The notes under the pieces were generated by a model. The model was not told the origin of the DNA. It did no database searches and was given only the letters and a program-made list of their open reading frames with translations. From contig NZ_LMMJ01000010.1 in NCBI RefSeq assembly GCF_001422205.1, positions 1 to 64,000 of the forward strand: a stretch of 64,000 nucleotides of DNA. The letters are read 5' to 3'. The DNA is from Curtobacterium sp. Leaf261 (GTDB taxonomy: Bacteria > Actinomycetota > Actinomycetes > Actinomycetales > Microbacteriaceae). The position numbers and the translations under genes are program-made. Shown in pieces: positions 12,037 to 31,347 of the stretch; within the stretch, counting starts at the first letter, position 1; each line of letters starts with the position of its first letter.

Positions 12037-12337
12037 GGCCCGGGCTGCCCGGGCTGCCCGGGCTTGCCGCGTCGCACCCCCATCTGGGTATCTCACCCCC
12101 ATCCAGGCGTTGCACCGCGATCGGCGCATCACACCACCGGTGAAGGGGGATGCGATGCGCCGAGAGTGGTGCCGCTGGGCGATCGGCGCGCCGGAAGCGG
12201 GCCGGGCAGCGCGAGCAGGTCGGCTCGCGAGCAGCGTGGCCCGGCACCTGACGGACTGGAGGGACGGTGCCGGACGGGTGCCGTGCCTCCAGTCCGGCAG
12301 GTGGTGCAGCCGCACCCGTGCGGCCGCTGTACCAGTC
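12037..12337. repeat. Intergenic 300-base stretch with two hairpin elements
   Basis: No gene was found. Directly after the stop, GCCCGGGCT is repeated three times. An imperfect family C element lies at 12122-12162 (CGGCGCATC pairing with GATGCGCCG). A family A copy lies at 12252-12296 (CGGACTGGAGG with CCTCCAGTCCG). They separate the convergent GH55-like and monooxygenase genes and probably end both transcripts. Confidence 0.75.
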
Positions 12338-13664: not shown

Positions 13665-15302
13665 TCACACTGCCTTCGCGTACGCGTCCAGGACTTCGCG
13701 CGGGAGTCGACCGCGGACGCCGACCTCGTACCCCTGCGCAACTGCCCAGGCCCGGATCGCTGACGGAGACGGTCTTCCGATCTCGTCCTGCGCACCGGAA
13801 CGGCTCGAGATCGCGGTCGGGGCTGTGACCGACGGAGCCGGCATCATGCCGATGGCAGATGCAGGCTGAAGGTGTCGGAGGAGGACTTCGAACACGTCCG
13901 GATGCACTGTGCGGGTGCCGAGCTCGAGCGAACGCGCGAGCTTCCCACCAGAGAACGACCCGTCCGTGATCAGCATCGTCGTCCGGCCGGACACTGCACC
14001 CGACACTCGAACGCCGAGTTCTTCGGCGCGTCTCTCGAGTCGCTCCCGTTGACGCTCCTCGCAGCCGGTGAACGCGATCCGGTCGCCCACTCGGAGCGGG
14101 ACACCGTGCGGCCACGGATCGGGCAGCGGACCCAGACCCGCGCTCAGCCGAGCGTGGCGCGCGGCATCGGCACGGTTGAGGACTGCTTTCACGGTGCCGT
14201 CTGGCACCCCGAGGAGGGAGGCGACCGACCGGAGTTCACGCCGCTCCTCGTGCGACACATGCCCGTCATCGACTGCCCGGTGCGCGAGGGCGAGGAGAAG
14301 TGCCTCGTGCGCAGCGGTGACATCGGCAGCAGTGAGGTCATAGTCGGCGCGCACCTCAGCGAGCGCATCCGACTCCGTTTCCGAGATGTCACCGTCCTCG
14401 AGCGCATCGAAGAGCAGTTCGAGGTACGCGGTCGTCCCGACTGGTGCACCCTCGTCGATGACCTCGAGCAGCGTGAGTGCGGTCAGCTGCTTCATCAACG
14501 GCGGCATCGTCGGTCGCGATCGTGAGAAACGGATCGGTGCCGGGCGTTGATCCCACGAGCGATCAGACGGCGACAGCGGAGTCCGTGTCGGACTGCTCGG
14601 CCAATTCGTCGATCGTGCGCTGTCCTGGGCCTGGACCATGGCCCGGTCGGGACCGCCGTTGGCACGCAGGTACGAGCGGAAGAGTCCGGCAGTCGCGCGC
14701 GCGTCCCCGAGCGCCGAATGTGCATCGTCGAGGGCGACGCCACTCGCCCAGCAGCAGTCCACGAGTCGGCGTCGATCCATCTCGGGGAGGTAGGACCAGC
14801 TGGCCTCGAGCGTGCAGTACCCGTCAACCCATGGCACGTCCCAGCCTGCTGCCTCGAGTTCGTTACGGAGGAAGGCGAGATCGAACTTCGCGTTGTGCGC
14901 GACGACTGGCAGACCGGCGATCCCCGCGACGATGCTCGGCGCGACGTCGGCGAAGCGCGGCTTGCCGTCGACATCTGCCTGCGTGATTCCGTGGATGTGT
15001 GTCGCTCCGACAGGCCCCTCCGGATCGAACCGCCCAACGGACTCGTCGACCACGACACCGGCAGCATCGAGCCGAACGATCGCGAGCTCGATGATGCGGT
15101 CACGTCTTGGCGACAGACCAGTGGTCTCGACATCGACCACGGCATACGTCGGCGTTCGAATCGGCCCACCCACACGAGTCGGAGTGGAGGTCGCCTGAGG
15201 AACGCGGCCGCTCAGAGGCGGCGCGGGGGCCCCGGGGGCGACGGAACTCGCAGTCTGTTCCTGTCTTGTGGATCGGCCCCGCAGCCAGTCGAAGAACCCC
15301 AT
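13665..15302 (-). CDS. Exonuclease-TerB-BRCT-Lsr2 fusion protein
   Basis: 545 residues. A DEDDh 3'-5' exonuclease domain spans about 52-215: D57 and E59 in DVETTG, HNAKFD at 136-141, and H195/D200 in HSALGDA. A helical TerB-like domain follows (about 270-375), then a BRCT-like domain (400-478, FTG ... GVRVSGAVSGRTTMLI), then a C-terminal block IRAWAVAQGYEVGVRGRLP (516-534) that matches the DNA-binding domain of Lsr2. It probably trims DNA or RNA at particular chromosomal or damaged sites. ATG 15302 follows GGGGGTCAC; the longer start at 15329 adds nothing conserved. It is transcribed alone. Confidence 0.82.
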   Translation of the reverse strand: MGFFDWLRGRSTRQEQTASSVAPGAPAPPLSGRVPQATSTPTRVGGPIRTPTYAVVDVETTGLSPRRDRIIELAIVRLDAAGVVVDESVGRFDPEGPVGATHIHGITQADVDGKPRFADVAPSIVAGIAGLPVVAHNAKFDLAFLRNELEAAGWDVPWVDGYCTLEASWSYLPEMDRRRLVDCCWASGVALDDAHSALGDARATAGLFRSYLRANGGPDRAMVQAQDSARSTNWPSSPTRTPLSPSDRSWDQRPAPIRFSRSRPTMPPLMKQLTALTLLEVIDEGAPVGTTAYLELLFDALEDGDISETESDALAEVRADYDLTAADVTAAHEALLLALAHRAVDDGHVSHEERRELRSVASLLGVPDGTVKAVLNRADAARHARLSAGLGPLPDPWPHGVPLRVGDRIAFTGCEERQRERLERRAEELGVRVSGAVSGRTTMLITDGSFSGGKLARSLELGTRTVHPDVFEVLLRHLQPASAIGMMPAPSVTAPTAISSRSGAQDEIGRPSPSAIRAWAVAQGYEVGVRGRLPREVLDAYAKAV

Positions 15303-15487
15303 GTGACCCCCTGTATGAGTTCGACTCACTATGACAGTCTCGGTCCCCGTCGCGCATGCCCCCGAACGCGGGCGCTGGACGCTCTGGCCCTCCCTGGCGC
15401 GATCTCATGTCACGGCGGGTCGATGGCGGGTCGGTGACGGGTCCGTGTCGTGGTGGTGTCGGGTCCCGGTCTCCTACGGTTGGCCGC

Positions 15488-16837: not shown

Positions 16838-16918
16838 CCATGCGCAGGACACCACAGAGGGCGCATGGCACCACGAACGGCGCATCGCACCACCGGGGAT
16901 CAGTGGTGCGATGCGCCG
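16838..16918. terminator. Two hairpins downstream of the GH42 gene (family C repeat)
   Basis: CCATGCGC (16838-16845) pairs with GCGCATGG (16861-16868). Next, a perfect 16-bp stem (16878-16893 with 16903-16918, arm CGGCGCATCGCACCAC) closes a 9-base loop. The second lies 31 bases past the GH42 stop and is the probable operon terminator. The same motif recurs imperfectly at 12122-12162. Confidence 0.8.
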
Positions 16919-16949
16919 ATGCTGGTGTGACCCGAGCAGCAGCCGGGGC

Positions 16950-25879: not shown

Positions 25880-27240
25880 CCGGGACTGGAACCGCTGCCT
25901 TCCTCGTCGTCGGGCCGGTCACCGTGCCCGTGCCCGATGGGTGGGTGGCGATCGATTCACCCCTCGGTATCGTCGGTGCTGCAACGCCAGCACGGAACGA
26001 TGGCTCCTTCCGCCCGAACGTCGTGGTCTCGACAGTTCCGCGTCCGGCTCCGATCCACGCGGTGTGTGCCGAGACCATCGCCGCAGTCATCGCGATCCGG
26101 CCGCGGACGCAGGTGCTCGATGTGACACCCGACGAACGGCTCGGCGGCCCGGGACGATGCATCTGGTACGCCTACGAGCAGGCCGGCCAGTGGATCATTG
26201 TGCAGCAGTGGATGACAGTGACGGCTCGGGAACAGGTGCACCTGACGGCGAGTGTCTCGGTCGACGAGTTCGAGTACTTCCGTTCTGGGTTCGTAGCGAT
26301 CGCCGAGAGCATCGTGATCGCGCCCGGGGACTCCCCGTCCGATCGCTCCTTGTCCGTTGGAGCTCGCGCGATGAACAGTGACCCGGTCCTTGAACCTGCT
26401 CTGGACGATCGGGTGTCCGCGCGTCTCGACGAGTCGTACGAGTCGTTGTCGGGAGTGCCCGGTGCGCAGCCACGGCCCGTCGGACGGTGGCTCATGAACG
26501 ACTCGACCTTGCAGCATCTCTTCGCGATCCGAGCGAGAGGAATGGTCGGCGGCGCCGACCGCAGGAGCGCGGACGGCATGTCGTTACGTGAACTCGGACT
26601 CACGAACCGATTCGGTGCTCCGGTCAACGACGGGCTGGCCATCGCCCGGCTCCTCGAACGGCCGTCCGCGCGGTTCGGGGCCTTGGCCCGTCATGCAGGC
26701 CTAGAGATCTCATGGACGCTCTGGTCTGACGGCACGATGGGACTTGTCCGCGGGGAGTCCAGTGTCGCCGAGCTCCCTCAGCGTCGTGCACGATCTGAGC
26801 CAGCGCTGTTCGACCGGGTTGGTCTGGGCCGTGCTGCGGGCCATCTGGTCGCCTGGATGGGCCTCTCGCCAGCATGGACGGTCGGGAATGACACCCGGCT
26901 GAGGCTGCCCGCCGACCTCGTCGATCGTCGCGTCGATGAACCAGGCGCACCCGAGGGGCCGTCACCTATCGACGACTGGGCGATGTGCAGGCTCTGGGCT
27001 CAGCCGGCGTGGGTTCGCATCACCGTGTGGCGCGACGGGGCGGGCCGCGGAGTCGACGTCGTTGCGGCCGGCGATGCCGGGTACTTCCGTGTTCGACCGA
27101 TGGATGGCGGGCAGGTCGAACTGTTCCCGGTTCCGAGCGGGACGGTGTTGCTGGATGCGCTTCACGTGCTCGCGGAACGTCCGACAGGTGATGGACGCAG
27201 TGGCACAAGATCCAGTTCGGGGGTGGCACCGCACCTGTGA
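25876..27240 (+). CDS. Two-domain protein with LpqN-like N-terminus and possible EspG-like C-terminus
   Basis: 454 residues, soluble. The first 165 or so (VTVPVPDGWVAIDSP ... QQWMTVTAREQVHLTASV) resemble the LpqN/LpqT fold of actinobacterial envelope proteins. Residues 200-440 resemble EspG-type chaperones of type VII secretion in pattern (W-R-I-T-V-W-R-D ... LLDALHVLAERP). Both assignments are tentative. The start overlaps the stop of the small membrane gene. No WXG100 or EccC gene is in view, so a secretion role cannot be shown. The HsdR_N gene begins 50 bases after its stop. Confidence 0.5.
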   Translation: MTGTGTAAFLVVGPVTVPVPDGWVAIDSPLGIVGAATPARNDGSFRPNVVVSTVPRPAPIHAVCAETIAAVIAIRPRTQVLDVTPDERLGGPGRCIWYAYEQAGQWIIVQQWMTVTAREQVHLTASVSVDEFEYFRSGFVAIAESIVIAPGDSPSDRSLSVGARAMNSDPVLEPALDDRVSARLDESYESLSGVPGAQPRPVGRWLMNDSTLQHLFAIRARGMVGGADRRSADGMSLRELGLTNRFGAPVNDGLAIARLLERPSARFGALARHAGLEISWTLWSDGTMGLVRGESSVAELPQRRARSEPALFDRVGLGRAAGHLVAWMGLSPAWTVGNDTRLRLPADLVDRRVDEPGAPEGPSPIDDWAMCRLWAQPAWVRITVWRDGAGRGVDVVAAGDAGYFRVRPMDGGQVELFPVPSGTVLLDALHVLAERPTGDGRSGTRSSSGVAPHL

Positions 27241-27290
27241 TGCCGACAGACTCTCAACTACCCTCAACGAGGGACTACCTAGGGGAAGCA

Positions 27291-28388
27291 ATGGAATTCG
27301 AAGAACGGCTCGCGGCACTCGCGACCAAGGTCAGCAATCAGCGCGAGGCGATCCAGACGGAGGAAGCGACCAAGAACGCGTTCGTCATGCCCTTCATCTC
27401 GACGATCCTCGGGTACGACGTTTTCAACCCGTTGGAGGTCGTGCCGGAGTTCACGGCAGACGTTGGGGTCAAGCGGGGCGAGAAGGTCGACTACGCGATC
27501 ATGCGTGACGGCGAAGTGCAGATCCTCATCGAGTGCAAGAAGTCGACCGAGCCGTTGAAGATCGAGCACGCATCGCAGCTGTTTCGGTACTTCTCCGTCA
27601 CGAACGCTCGTATCGCAGTGCTGACGAACGGCGAGGTCTACAACTTCTACACGGACCTCGATGCCCCGAACAAGATGGACGCGAAGCCGTTCCTCGTGCT
27701 CGACCTCGGGGACATCGACGAGACGCTGCTCACCGAGCTCCAGAAGCTGAGCAAGGAGAACTTCGACCTCGACTCGGTCATCAACGCGGCAGAGGAGCTG
27801 AAGTACGTCGGTTCACTCAAGCGAGCCCTGTCTGCGCAGCTCCGCGAGCCGTCCGACGAGTTCGCCAAGTTCCTGACCACCAGGGTCTATGACGGCTCGT
27901 ACACGCAGAAGGTCCGCGAGCAGTTCGGGCCGCTCGTCGCCAAGGCGATCAAGCAGTTCCTCAACGAGCAGGTCAACGACCGGCTCAAGACCGCTCTCGG
28001 CTCGTCGTTCGTCGGCAGTACGCAGATGGAAGCCCCAGCGGCGACGATCCAGAGCGAGGGTGCCGCTGAGGAGAACCTCGAGCAGGCGTCCGACGTGGTC
28101 ACCACGCAGGAGGAGCTCGAGGGGTACCAGATCGTCAAAGCGATCGCGTGTAGCGAGGTCAAGCCGTACCGGGTGGCGCACCGCGACCAGAAGTCGTACT
28201 TCGCGATCCTGCTCGACGACAACAACCGCAAGCCCATCGCCCGCCTGTGGTTCAACGGCAAGAAGCAGAAGTACATCGGCCTGTTTGACGAGAATAAAGT
28301 GGAGACGAAGCACCCGATCGATGCACTCGAAGATATCTATGAATTTTCTGAGATCATTCGTAGGGCAGTTCGAAGCGTTATCGCTTGA
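27291..28388 (+). CDS. HsdR_N-type restriction endonuclease-like protein, stand-alone
   Basis: 365 residues. The N-terminal half is a type I restriction R-subunit nuclease domain: D67 in EKVDYAI, then E81-C-K83 in LIECKK, the D-ExK core of PD-(D/E)xK nucleases. There is no helicase motor. The C-terminal half (YRVAHRDQKSYFAILLDDN ... QKYIGLFDE) is the domain common in stand-alone members. ATG 27291 follows AGGGGAAGCA and was preferred to ATG 27237, which overlaps the upstream stop. The last 100 bases are AT-rich, unlike the rest. The stop overlaps the TTG start of the next gene. Confidence 0.85.
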   Translation: MEFEERLAALATKVSNQREAIQTEEATKNAFVMPFISTILGYDVFNPLEVVPEFTADVGVKRGEKVDYAIMRDGEVQILIECKKSTEPLKIEHASQLFRYFSVTNARIAVLTNGEVYNFYTDLDAPNKMDAKPFLVLDLGDIDETLLTELQKLSKENFDLDSVINAAEELKYVGSLKRALSAQLREPSDEFAKFLTTRVYDGSYTQKVREQFGPLVAKAIKQFLNEQVNDRLKTALGSSFVGSTQMEAPAATIQSEGAAEENLEQASDVVTTQEELEGYQIVKAIACSEVKPYRVAHRDQKSYFAILLDDNNRKPIARLWFNGKKQKYIGLFDENKVETKHPIDALEDIYEFSEIIRRAVRSVIA

Positions 28389-29599
28389 TTGCATCGCCTA
28401 GCAACCGGTGGGCGGGCCCAGCTATTGCGGGATACGTCTACCAGTTCGACTATTCGATCAAGCGGATTCTGGGCTCAAGCGACGATGATCAATTCGTCAT
28501 TGAGGGCCTAGAGGATATCGATATCACTGACATCAACAACGAGCGGCGCGCCGTTCAAGTGAAGTACCATGAGGCCGCTCGCTTCAATGGGCTCAAATCT
28601 CTGCGTGATCCAATCAAAGAGATGTTTTTCGCATACGCACACGGCCTCGCGGAGTCATTCACACTTCACGCCCATTACGAAGCATCACAGAACCTGGGTA
28701 CCTCGCTGACTACTGCGGAGGTCATGGACTGCTTGACCGAACGGTCTCGTGGTGGCATTCGCCGATACTGGGTACCCCTAAACGAGGAGGTGATCCAAGG
28801 CTTCGCGGATCGGTTAGAGATCTCTCAAGGTCCAGATAGAAAGACCCAGCGACGGGAGGTCATGGCAATGATCGGGTCGTCAACGGATGCCACTGATGAC
28901 GAGTGCGAACATCTACTATATCCGACTGCTCTCGCTGTTATAGCCGAAATCGCGATGACCCGCGATGTGCGTCAGCGCACGATCGGTAGACAAGAGTTTA
29001 TAAACAAAGTGGACAGGCGCAAGCAGCTCTGGAGTGGCTGGCACGCTCGTCTGCAGTCGCGAGAACAGTGGGTGCGTTCGCTCAAGGCGATGTTGCGGAT
29101 CCGGCGATCTTTGCGGGCCACGTTAGTCCGCGGTCTTTGCCTCGACGGGGCGTCGCTAAACGACGGGGGTCTGCAGCCGCTTGTGCACGAGCTAGCTACG
29201 AAACAATTCGGTCCTGGCGCTCTCGTGGGTACCAAGCCGTGGACGATAATCTGCTCCGATAGCGCCGTCGCATTAGTTGTCAAGAGGTATCTAGTGCAGC
29301 ACGGGCTCAGTTTTAACGACGGCTTCGAATGGCTCGGGTTCTCAGCCACCCTATTTGAAATCGATCCAGTCGTGACCGTCAATAAGCCCGGCACAAAGCT
29401 AGTACACGTCAGTCACGCGATCAGGGTAGTAACCCTGGACTCGTTGCGCAATTCGGGACACATTCTCGCGCTCGATGTCCTCGTCGCGGCCTCCGGGCAG
29501 ATGTCAGAGGTGGCCCAGTTGGTGTCTGCTCGAGACTACGTCGGCAGTGATTCCCTCACGCTCGATGAGATAAACAGTATCATCAGGAGTTCTTCATGA
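28385..29599 (+). CDS. DUF4297/Cap4-like nuclease, defence effector
   Basis: 404 residues, clearly lower in GC than its surroundings. Residues 10-62 carry the DUF4297/Cap4 nuclease signature: GPAIAGYVYQFDYSIKRIL, then VIEGLEDIDI (E40, E43, D44) and QVKYHEA (Q58-K60), a PD-(D/E)xK core. The rest is unlabelled and helical, with some hydrophobic strands (LVRGLCLDGASLNDGG) of unknown role. The start is TTG 28385, overlapping the TGA of the HsdR_N gene, and the stop overlaps the next ATG (ATGA). In known DUF4297-HerA pairs this subunit degrades DNA after infection is sensed; the same role is inferred. Confidence 0.8.
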   Translation: MIASPSNRWAGPAIAGYVYQFDYSIKRILGSSDDDQFVIEGLEDIDITDINNERRAVQVKYHEAARFNGLKSLRDPIKEMFFAYAHGLAESFTLHAHYEASQNLGTSLTTAEVMDCLTERSRGGIRRYWVPLNEEVIQGFADRLEISQGPDRKTQRREVMAMIGSSTDATDDECEHLLYPTALAVIAEIAMTRDVRQRTIGRQEFINKVDRRKQLWSGWHARLQSREQWVRSLKAMLRIRRSLRATLVRGLCLDGASLNDGGLQPLVHELATKQFGPGALVGTKPWTIICSDSAVALVVKRYLVQHGLSFNDGFEWLGFSATLFEIDPVVTVNKPGTKLVHVSHAIRVVTLDSLRNSGHILALDVLVAASGQMSEVAQLVSARDYVGSDSLTLDEINSIIRSSS

Positions 29600-31347
29600 T
29601 CGATCTTTCCGACTACGCAAAACTTACTCATATCGGGCCGGACCTGATTGAACTCGAGATCGAATCAACAGATGAATATGAACGAAGCGGGATAAGTCTC
29701 GAGCTTGGTGCGCTTCTGGCGATCGAGGATGACGCCGGTACCAGGCTGGTTGCCTCGGTCCAGAGCTATAGAATTCGGGATCGAATTGGTCCAGCTGAAG
29801 AGGGGCCAACGAGTCCAACATTCACACTTTCGCTGCAGCCTATGGGGCGGATGGTCAACGGCAAGTTCACGCGTGGGGGGAACCAGATAACCATTCCGCC
29901 GAAGCGAGTGACTCTTGTGGGCAAAGAGGCACTCACCTCTATCTACGGCGGGCCAGTTTCCCCTAAGAGACTTGTCTTCAGTCACCTTGTTCAAGACCCA
30001 AATGTGGAAGTCGGTGTGAATGGCGACAGGTTGTTTGGGAAACATGTTGCGATTCTTGGTTCTAGCGGAAGCGGCAAGAGTTCTACCGTTGCAGCAGTCA
30101 TCCAAGCTGGTATCCGCGGTTCTGAAGACGGTGTTTTGAATAATGCCCACTCTGTGATGTTCGATCTGCATGGAGAATACTCATCTGCGTTCCCTGACGC
30201 TCGAACCATTCAGGTCGACGACATGGCGTTACCGTACTGGCTGCTGACTGCCGATGAGTTAGAGAGTATGTTCATCGAGAGCAATGAACAAAACTCTCAC
30301 AATCAGGTTTCCCAATTCCGCCGTGCGGTCATTCTGAATAAGCGTCGGCACAACCCGTCACTCGACCCACACGCTCGTACCTATGATTCGCCCGTGTTCT
30401 TCGACCTCGGAGAAGTCGTGAATTATCTTTCGAACTTAAATTCAGAGGTTATCAGCAAGATCGTCGGCGAGGGCCTCCCGAAATTGACCGATGGACGATT
30501 GATCACCTCACGGGAAGATAGTTATTTCACGGAAAGACTCAACTTCATCGAGACGAGTACGGCTAACGCGACGAGGGCGTCAAATGGGCCGTTCGGAGGT
30601 GAATTCAATCGATTATTGATGCGGCTAGAGGCGACCCTAGACGACCCGCGCCTAGCGTTCATTCTGTCTCCTCGCTCCGCCTCGGGGGAGGTCTACGGAA
30701 CGGCTGACTTCGCGGAGATTTTGTCCCATATTACAGGCTATTCGAATAACGCACAAACGAAGGTGACGATTATCGATCTCAGTGGAGTACCGTTTGAGAT
30801 GCTGAGCATTGTCGTTGCGCTTGTGACCAGATTGATTTTTACTTTTTGCTTTCTGCGCAAGAAGGAAAGTATTGAGGCCGGTTCCGAGTTGCCCTACCTA
30901 CTGGTGTACGAGGAAGCTCATAACTACGTCTCGCGAAATGACGCGGCGCGATTTGCTCCAGCGCGCAAAGCGATCGAGAGGGTCGCGAAAGAAGGACGGA
31001 AGTATGGGGTTGCTGTAATGGTGGTGAGCCAGCGACCTTCGGAGATCTCAGAGACCGTGCTTTCTCAATGTAGCAACTTCATCGTTATGCGACTCACCAA
31101 TCCGAGTGATCAACAGTACGTTCGGCGCCTGCTTCCGGACGAGCTTTCGGTGTGGACCGCAGGTTTGCCGAGTTTAGAGCAGCAGGAAGCGGTAATAATT
31201 GGTGATGCGGTGTCGATGCCAACTTTAGTGCGGGTTGACGATATCGCTGATCTTCCCGCCTCAGCTGACGTCCCGTTCCTGCAGGAATGGCGAAAGCGAT
31301 GGCTGGAGTTGTCTCTCAAAGATGTAACGGACGTGTGGCGAAGATGA
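29596..31347 (+). CDS. herA-like: HerA-type hexameric ATPase/translocase, defence partner
   Basis: 583 residues, normal for HerA. An N-terminal beta-barrel (HAS-barrel-like, to about residue 120) precedes the ATPase core. Walker A is GSSGSGKSS at 155-163, MFDLHGEY lies at 188-195, Walker B is PYLLVYEEAHNYV starting at 433, sensor VSQRP is at 477-481, and MRLTNPSD near 498 may be the arginine-finger segment. It is expected to form a ring that assembles with the nuclease encoded just upstream. GC content is low and codons unlike those of neighbouring operons, consistent with transfer. The gene ends 80 bases before the convergent LacI gene. Confidence 0.88.
   Translation: MIDLSDYAKLTHIGPDLIELEIESTDEYERSGISLELGALLAIEDDAGTRLVASVQSYRIRDRIGPAEEGPTSPTFTLSLQPMGRMVNGKFTRGGNQITIPPKRVTLVGKEALTSIYGGPVSPKRLVFSHLVQDPNVEVGVNGDRLFGKHVAILGSSGSGKSSTVAAVIQAGIRGSEDGVLNNAHSVMFDLHGEYSSAFPDARTIQVDDMALPYWLLTADELESMFIESNEQNSHNQVSQFRRAVILNKRRHNPSLDPHARTYDSPVFFDLGEVVNYLSNLNSEVISKIVGEGLPKLTDGRLITSREDSYFTERLNFIETSTANATRASNGPFGGEFNRLLMRLEATLDDPRLAFILSPRSASGEVYGTADFAEILSHITGYSNNAQTKVTIIDLSGVPFEMLSIVVALVTRLIFTFCFLRKKESIEAGSELPYLLVYEEAHNYVSRNDAARFAPARKAIERVAKEGRKYGVAVMVVSQRPSEISETVLSQCSNFIVMRLTNPSDQQYVRRLLPDELSVWTAGLPSLEQQEAVIIGDAVSMPTLVRVDDIADLPASADVPFLQEWRKRWLELSLKDVTDVWRR

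Follow-up and report, generated by a model that had tools for sequence, protein, structure and literature searches.

A DEDDh exonuclease joined to TerB-like, BRCT and Lsr2 domains in Curtobacterium sp. Leaf261: an accessory actinobacterial family and a candidate single-gene defence nuclease

Introduction

Lsr2 is a nucleoid-associated silencer that recognizes foreign DNA through its AT content. Its DNA-binding domain has also been described in fusion with Ku in cluster J mycobacteriophages such as Omega and Corndog, in the available part of PMC8612146. A second point of reference is the label PDC, which stands for phage defence candidate (PMC11514479, available part); in one study, most of the candidates classed as core still await validation (PMC12988326, available part). 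Here we describe a gene at 13665..15302 on the minus strand of a 64,000-nucleotide stretch of Curtobacterium sp. Leaf261 (contig NZ_LMMJ01000010.1, positions 1 to 64,000; the window) that brings an Lsr2 DNA-binding domain together with a match to the PADLOC candidate model PDC-S48. The product reads, from the N-terminus, as DEDDh exonuclease, TerB-like domain, BRCT domain and Lsr2 tail. A sequence-only reading of the window had called this an unusual mix in which the tail might steer a repair or defence exonuclease to foreign or AT-rich DNA. The open literature that we searched, including few subscription papers and no separate preprints and covered in part by title or start of abstract, contained no paper on this architecture, none in which Lsr2, exonuclease and BRCT appear together, and no mention of the name PDC-S48.

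Results

Domain architecture

The exonuclease domain occupies residues 52–216 (14655..15149; this and all gene features below lie on the minus strand). Pfam RNase_T matched residues 55–208 (E 1.5e-23), and Asp-57, Glu-59, Asp-141, His-195, and Asp-200, which we take to be the catalytic residues from the DEDDh pattern, are identical in 33/33 aligned family members. A fold search with this domain retrieved DinG, the DNA polymerase III (Pol III) epsilon subunit, and RNase T at Z 18–22, or Z 17–22 with TREX1 included, and its fold neighbours also include ERI1-type enzymes, the exonuclease Cap18, and PolC. The residues and the DnaQ/RNase T fold place the domain amongst the DEDDh (DnaQ-like) exonucleases, with a predicted 3'-5' activity. 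The best NCBIfam match was the DEDDh family exonuclease PRK06063 (NF004719), with 166.7 bits against a cut-off of 389, while the Pol III epsilon equivalog NF004316 gave 62.4 bits against 196.

The sequence-only reading had assigned the C-terminal block to Lsr2, and the profile data bear this out. The tail, residues 509–545 with the stop codon (13665..13778), matched Pfam Lsr2_DNA-bd at residues 509–544 (E 5.1e-14, 51.8 bits versus a cut-off of 26.9). The last 37 residues of the protein matched the solved Lsr2 domains 6qkp, 6qkq, and 2kng (E 2e-6 to 2.8e-6), and a profile of the C-terminal half found solved Lsr2 domains at E 5.8e-10. The RGR motif (13707-13715) lies in register with the RGR of 6qkp and 2kng and is present in 31/31 aligned tails. 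Of Lsr2, only the DNA-binding domain was matched (Pfam, E up to 5), the N-terminal oligomerization domain being absent; the remainder of the protein folds as exonuclease, helical domain, and BRCT in the AlphaFold2 model.

Both profile and fold identify a BRCT domain at residues 402–480 (13863..14099). Pfam BRCT matched residues 409–469 with 24.3 bits against a cut-off of 21.3, and the C-terminal-half profile matched the BRCT domains of DNA ligase and RFC1, the closest in sequence, at E 7.4e-7 to 4.2e-4. The fold search returned Rad4, RFC1, and TopBP1 (Z up to 10.8, root-mean-square deviation 2.0 over 78 residues). When the C-terminal half was searched against a viral structure library, the named matches at E <0.001 were mostly DNA ligases, the others being BRCT proteins or unnamed. 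Thr-412, Gly-413, and Lys-454 are invariant across the 33 aligned members.

The TerB-like domain, residues 262–389 (14136..14519), is the weak part of the assignment. Pfam TerB matched residues 332–372 at 20.1 bits, under the cut-off of 24.4, in the window copy, and was found in 20/33 aligned members at E up to 0.01 (best 8.1e-6). The region is entirely helical in the AlphaFold2 model and carries two acidic motifs, Asp-303/Glu-310 and Asp-346/Glu-353, of which all four residues are identical in 33/33 members. With the C-terminal-half profile, a Tic110-like chain (E 0.0026) scored better than the TerB-like "tellurite resistance protein of COG3793" (E 0.011). In the fold search of that half, BRCT matches filled the result, so that the TerB fold was not reached by structure. 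At E up to 0.01 in the same 33 members, the other domains were found as follows: RNase_T in 33/33, Lsr2 in 31/33, PTCB-BRCT in 23/33, and BRCT in 20/33. By sequence comparison, the exonuclease, BRCT, and Lsr2 domains of the window copy are secure, and the fusion that had been read from the sequence is confirmed, with the TerB-like part below its threshold.

In the AlphaFold2 model, the exonuclease, helical domain, BRCT, and tail are all confident, with disordered linkers between them. The mean predicted local distance difference test (pLDDT) values were 85.3 and 89.7, and the predicted template modelling (pTM) scores were 0.50 for the whole protein and 0.70; the relative placement of the domains is uncertain because of the whole-protein value. 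The linker at residues 217–261 (14520..14654) contains a WP motif (Trp-234, Pro-235) conserved in at least 90% of the family alignment, with pLDDT <50 at residues 251–261. A low-complexity linker, residues 481–508 (13779..13862), precedes the tail; its length differs between relatives and its pLDDT is <50 at residues 486–508. The open frame runs from 15302 to 13665 and encodes 545 amino acids from an ATG (MGFFDWL...). A GTG at 15329 would be an alternative start, and we prefer the ATG because most relatives open with a similar motif (residues 1–10, MGFFDWLRGR, 15273..15302). This motif is modelled with a helix at residues 4–7, at a mean pLDDT of only 48 for residues 1–10.

A coherent family with few tail-less members

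A scan of named genomes with two short peptide patterns, which was not exhaustive, gave 51 loci. The core of exonuclease, TerB-like domain, and BRCT is present at 37 of them, and 35 of these carry the Lsr2 tail. They span seven actinobacterial families, with carriers in Curtobacterium, Rathayibacter, Microbacterium, Agromyces, Mycetocola, Cellulomonas, Nocardioides, Blastococcus, Modestobacter, Actinokineospora, and others. The preserved domain order, tail included, at 35/37 loci shows that the arrangement is not due to chance; the mix is a coherent family rather than the single oddity that its description as unusual might imply. The other 14 loci comprise a rearranged one (L114), one with an unrelated C-terminus (L107), and 12 with the exonuclease only. 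At L100 the frame is interrupted near the start. The 33-row alignment (A5) leaves out L078, L087, L095, L100, and L103, as near-copies, extended, or interrupted at the start, and the tail-less copy of genome G071 (L031) is in neither the alignment nor the tree.

In a 58-row tree, a fully supported branch separates the gene family, including three tail-less members, from 18 untailed relatives, a sample of our own choosing. Such relatives within the bacterial family are about 30–37% identical. Long branches join in the outgroup. Within the family the tail requires three changes, a number reached as low by shuffled labels in 500/500 trials with only three tail-less rows. One gain of the tail followed by two losses would be compatible with the tree, no better than with shuffled labels.

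Three further arrangements were seen amongst relatives. In one genus genome (L063:8483-16474), an untailed core is fused to HEPN_Swt1, DUF4011, an AAA helicase, an MTES_1575 nuclease, and DUF3320 in a protein of 2664 amino acids, and two further genus genomes have open frames of similar size. Near a Mycetocola copy (L055:3060-8142), a long frame combines a helicase with a DEDDh exonuclease and a second frame combines DEDDh with BRCT, as judged by eye. Genome G032 has a short second exonuclease piece (L054:14877-15158), 57% identical, about 8 kb from its full copy.

Patchy distribution and genomic setting

The gene is accessory and patchily distributed. Counting its own genome throughout, close copies occur in 4/60 sampled genus genomes, 9/299 family genomes, and 3/396 phylum genomes; of the nine family copies, those of G303 and G071 have no tail and that of G145 is in two pieces. 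Thirteen more genus genomes hold only a distant core, about 31–34% identical.

The window gene has a third-position GC content of 0.747, whereas ten other genes of the window range from 0.86 to 0.97. For the two flanking genes, homologues were found in 34/60 and 25/60 genus genomes, own genome included. Outside the own genome they are at most 57% identical and stand side by side in no listed genus genome, and they revealed no clean empty site amongst the 60 genus genomes. The gene and its neighbours are bracketed by a 65-base imperfect palindromic repeat (window 12107-12171 and 16863-16927, 78% alike), whose 13-base core has no other occurrence in the window with one mismatch allowed.

Defence candidate match and gene neighbours

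PADLOC PDC-S48 matched residues 51–478 over model positions 4–408 of 411 (E 3.1e-132). A defence-type neighbour was present at 11/38 loci of the family (Gabija, Lamassu, PsyrT, type I restriction, and others). PADLOC identified GajA at L094 and L095, LmuA at L106, SngA at L074, PsyrT at L105, and HsdR of type I restriction at L081. Pfam alone, with no PADLOC match, gave ApeA-like domains at two loci, L074 and L100; a Schlafen-type helicase lies at L079, and a CHAT-NACHT-TPR protein at L088. The neighbours of L082 and L085 cluster with those of L079 and L081. The neighbours that were scanned singly had been picked by eye, 17 for PADLOC and overlapping sets for Pfam.

As a broader comparison, 231 PADLOC families were matched by the 148 nearest neighbours taken together and 88 by 148 random genes, with 25 of each listed; a single protein can match many models and so weigh heavily on these numbers, and the enrichment is therefore not a measured rate. 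The control was one draw of 148 out of 223 predicted genes, from 18 stretches in seven genomes of genera unmatched to those of the neighbours. It omitted one drawn stretch, on the short contig with the G005 copy, and moved another that fell inside the window. We regard the enrichment of defence genes near relatives as suggestive. Three PADLOC names among the neighbours, mad3 (4 versus 12 in the control), mad8 (3 versus 11), and a weak AriA (3 versus 6), were dropped since the control gave more, and AriA at 2e-53 was a cross-match of the GajA protein at L094. Amongst 290 neighbour proteins of the 38 loci, no cluster extended over more than four loci, and hence no conserved operon partner was found with a simple gene caller that can miss genes of low third-position GC and missed the window gene itself.

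Genes for DUF4297 (E 1.5e-39) and HerA (E 5.8e-166) proteins lie at 28385-31347 in a GC-poor stretch of the window, the make-up of a two-gene defence system, as far as the available part of its description goes. Since the pair lies 13 kb from the gene, past genes for sugar uptake and use (by eye), we treat it as context and not as a partner. Just upstream of the pair, an open frame at 27237-28388 resembles a restriction-enzyme N-terminal domain by eye and has no PADLOC match.

Lsr2 domains elsewhere in carriers and on other proteins

Five separate Lsr2 genes were read by eye in the Curtobacterium sp. Leaf261 genome. In 3 of the 15 distinct carrier genomes searched for Lsr2 domains (16 entries, one genome being entered twice), the domain of this gene is the sole one: G300, G145, where the copy is the broken one in two pieces, and the genome of L075. 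Because some carriers have no other Lsr2 domain, a separate Lsr2 is not required as partner of the tail.

Lsr2 tails were also seen on other proteins. AAA_27 proteins of about 1300 amino acids with such a tail were found at 2/14 long-frame places inspected (L300:1730-5710 and L305:2227-6156), and are SbcC/YhaN-like by eye. A Brachybacterium frame (L114:9087-11366) joins a DEDDh exonuclease, an Lsr2 domain, and a PIF1 helicase, and the gene next to it has a weak BRCT match (17.4 bits versus 21.3). A SUKH (SMI1/KNR4) domain protein carries the tail at L311:2247-2945. The tail of the window protein itself (window 13668-13787, residues 505–544) matches the end of a type II methyltransferase model of PADLOC (E 4.5e-4), which hints at an Lsr2-like tail on some methyltransferases.

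Discussion

We place at about even odds that the protein is a single-gene defence nuclease tethered by its Lsr2 tail to AT-rich or foreign DNA, most likely directed at phages or other mobile DNA. In such an enzyme the flexible linker would let the remaining protein scan nearby DNA, the ligase/RFC1-type BRCT would bind DNA at an end or nick, the TerB-like domain would act as a metal-dependent switch or docking part, and the DEDDh domain would then remove nucleotides from 3' ends. The domains, the intact DEDDh and RGR residues, the patchy spread, the defence genes beside part of the loci, and the tail in some genomes that lack any other Lsr2 domain are seen directly. We infer that the enzyme acts on DNA, is targeted to AT-rich sequence, and has an effect in defence, and likewise what BRCT and TerB contribute. 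In favour of the proposal are the PDC-S48 match, the invariant DEDDh and RGR residues, the accessory spread, the low third-position GC of the window copy, the defence-type neighbours of relatives, a core on a phage contig beside an integrase, the DUF4297-HerA pair in the window, and the carriers whose sole Lsr2 domain is in this gene. Work on Lsr2 in Mycobacterium smegmatis infected with phage Fionnbharth also favours it (PMC10066036, available part).

Several observations weigh against a composition-guided defence nuclease. From the same available part of PMC10066036, the phage that attracts Lsr2 has a GC content similar to that of its host, 67.4%, and only two regions richer in AT; phage BPs did not draw Lsr2 along; and cells without Lsr2 became phage-resistant. 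The tail is a single DNA-binding unit that has no Lsr2 oligomerization domain and may therefore prefer AT-rich DNA only weakly. Cores without a tail exist at L086 and L102, amongst the 37 loci, in the G071 copy, and in a phage copy, so the core can dispense with the tail. The gene tree mostly tracks host families and gene GC falls under that of the flanks at only 12/37 loci, so that the relatives show no general departure from their flanks and recent transfer is unsupported for most loci. Among the neighbours, 8 of the 17 scanned singly had no PADLOC match, 27/38 loci had no defence neighbour amongst those inspected, and the L094 and L095 copies are near-identical and thus not fully independent. 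The random control also gave strong matches to GajB (4.1e-100) and RTasHel (5.4e-115), which probably come from one UvrD-type helicase; this protein seems to give most of the families listed for that pool.

The main rival, possible though less likely than defence, is a DNA-end repair or recombination nuclease carried on islands, in which the tail is a general tether, BRCT grips ends or nicks, and 3' ends are trimmed back by the exonuclease. A tail that steers to foreign or AT-rich DNA would be indistinguishable here from a plain tether for an end-processing enzyme. The closeness of the BRCT domain to DNA ligase and RFC1 is in keeping with repair, as are the Lsr2 tails on AAA_27 proteins, the Brachybacterium DEDDh-Lsr2-PIF1 frame with its weak BRCT match in the adjoining gene, and the published Ku-Lsr2 fusions (PMC8612146, available part). 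These AAA_27, PIF1, and Ku parallels support DNA tethering, which fits repair as well as defence; the patchy presence, the defence neighbours, and the standing of the core as a PADLOC defence candidate fit repair less well.

It is rather improbable that the gene serves its mobile elements, by removing competitors or aiding element replication, rather than the host cell. A tail-less core, 45% identical, lies on a phage contig (L219:908-2266) with an integrase next to it on one side and, on the other, an amidase at a greater distance. Phage integrase domains occur in 3/148 neighbours, and a TrwC-type relaxase was found near L087; its neighbour cluster comprises four loci, which may have no more than a helicase part in common. 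However, amongst the best 80 of 126 viral loci the core occurs only in that one and in one more at 30% identity, the others listed matching shorter stretches, and no phage or plasmid record reaches 80% coverage of the protein (E up to 1e-10).

Other DEDDh enzymes act on RNA or short oligonucleotides, and RNase T, ERI1-type enzymes, and Cap18 are amongst the fold neighbours; an RNA or signal-nucleotide exonuclease with a tail only for nucleoid placement is nevertheless quite unlikely, as the Lsr2 domain and the ligase-type BRCT are both indicative of DNA. A role as an ordinary replication or proofreading accessory of Pol III, the housekeeping reading, is rejected as scarcely credible, for despite the exonuclease fold of epsilon and PolC the protein lies far under the equivalog cut-offs, and its patchy distribution, with no close copy in 56/60 genus genomes, largely refutes it.

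The sequence-only reading, which had left repair and defence side by side, is partly supported: its fusion holds, the spread across families is that of an accessory gene, and defence gains from the PDC-S48 match and the neighbours of relatives while repair stays the main rival. More speculatively, and with doubt prevailing, the Lsr2 DNA-binding domain could be a portable tag by which actinobacteria turn nucleases and end-processing machinery into immune enzymes guided by composition; this exonuclease, the DEDDh-Lsr2-PIF1 frame, and the SbcC-like tailed proteins would be members. If so, the cue that Lsr2 uses for silencing foreign genes would be reused to destroy foreign DNA, by an immune enzyme guided by base composition and not by sequence, modification, or structure. 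The gene also offers a way to test PDC-S48, for which the literature searched gave no test, and hints that Lsr2-tailed DNA enzymes form a wider class.

Compared with described proteins, the window protein resembles PRK06063 best over residues 52–217 of the exonuclease, with a second, smaller stretch, but stays far under the cut-off of that family. With the Lsr2 silencer it has in common a C-terminal DNA-binding domain with RGR; it differs in having exonuclease, TerB-like, and BRCT parts and no oligomerization domain. Shango is a multi-gene system. TerB-type domains recur there in a defence protein, and a SngA-like gene (TerB_N, TerB, TerB_C) lies near a Mycetocola relative, but no exonuclease or Lsr2 domain was found in that SngA-like protein. 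Ku-Lsr2, in the available part of PMC8612146, is likewise a DNA-end protein bearing a C-terminal Lsr2 DNA-binding domain and RGR motif; in contrast, the role of Ku is to hold double-strand ends so that they can be joined, it is no DEDDh exonuclease, and the fusion is described from phages. The likeness to PDC-S48 extends through the exonuclease, TerB-like, and BRCT core over nearly the whole of a single-gene model whose anti-phage role is that of a candidate, and the difference lies at the C-terminus, where the matched part of the model stops short of the Lsr2 tail.
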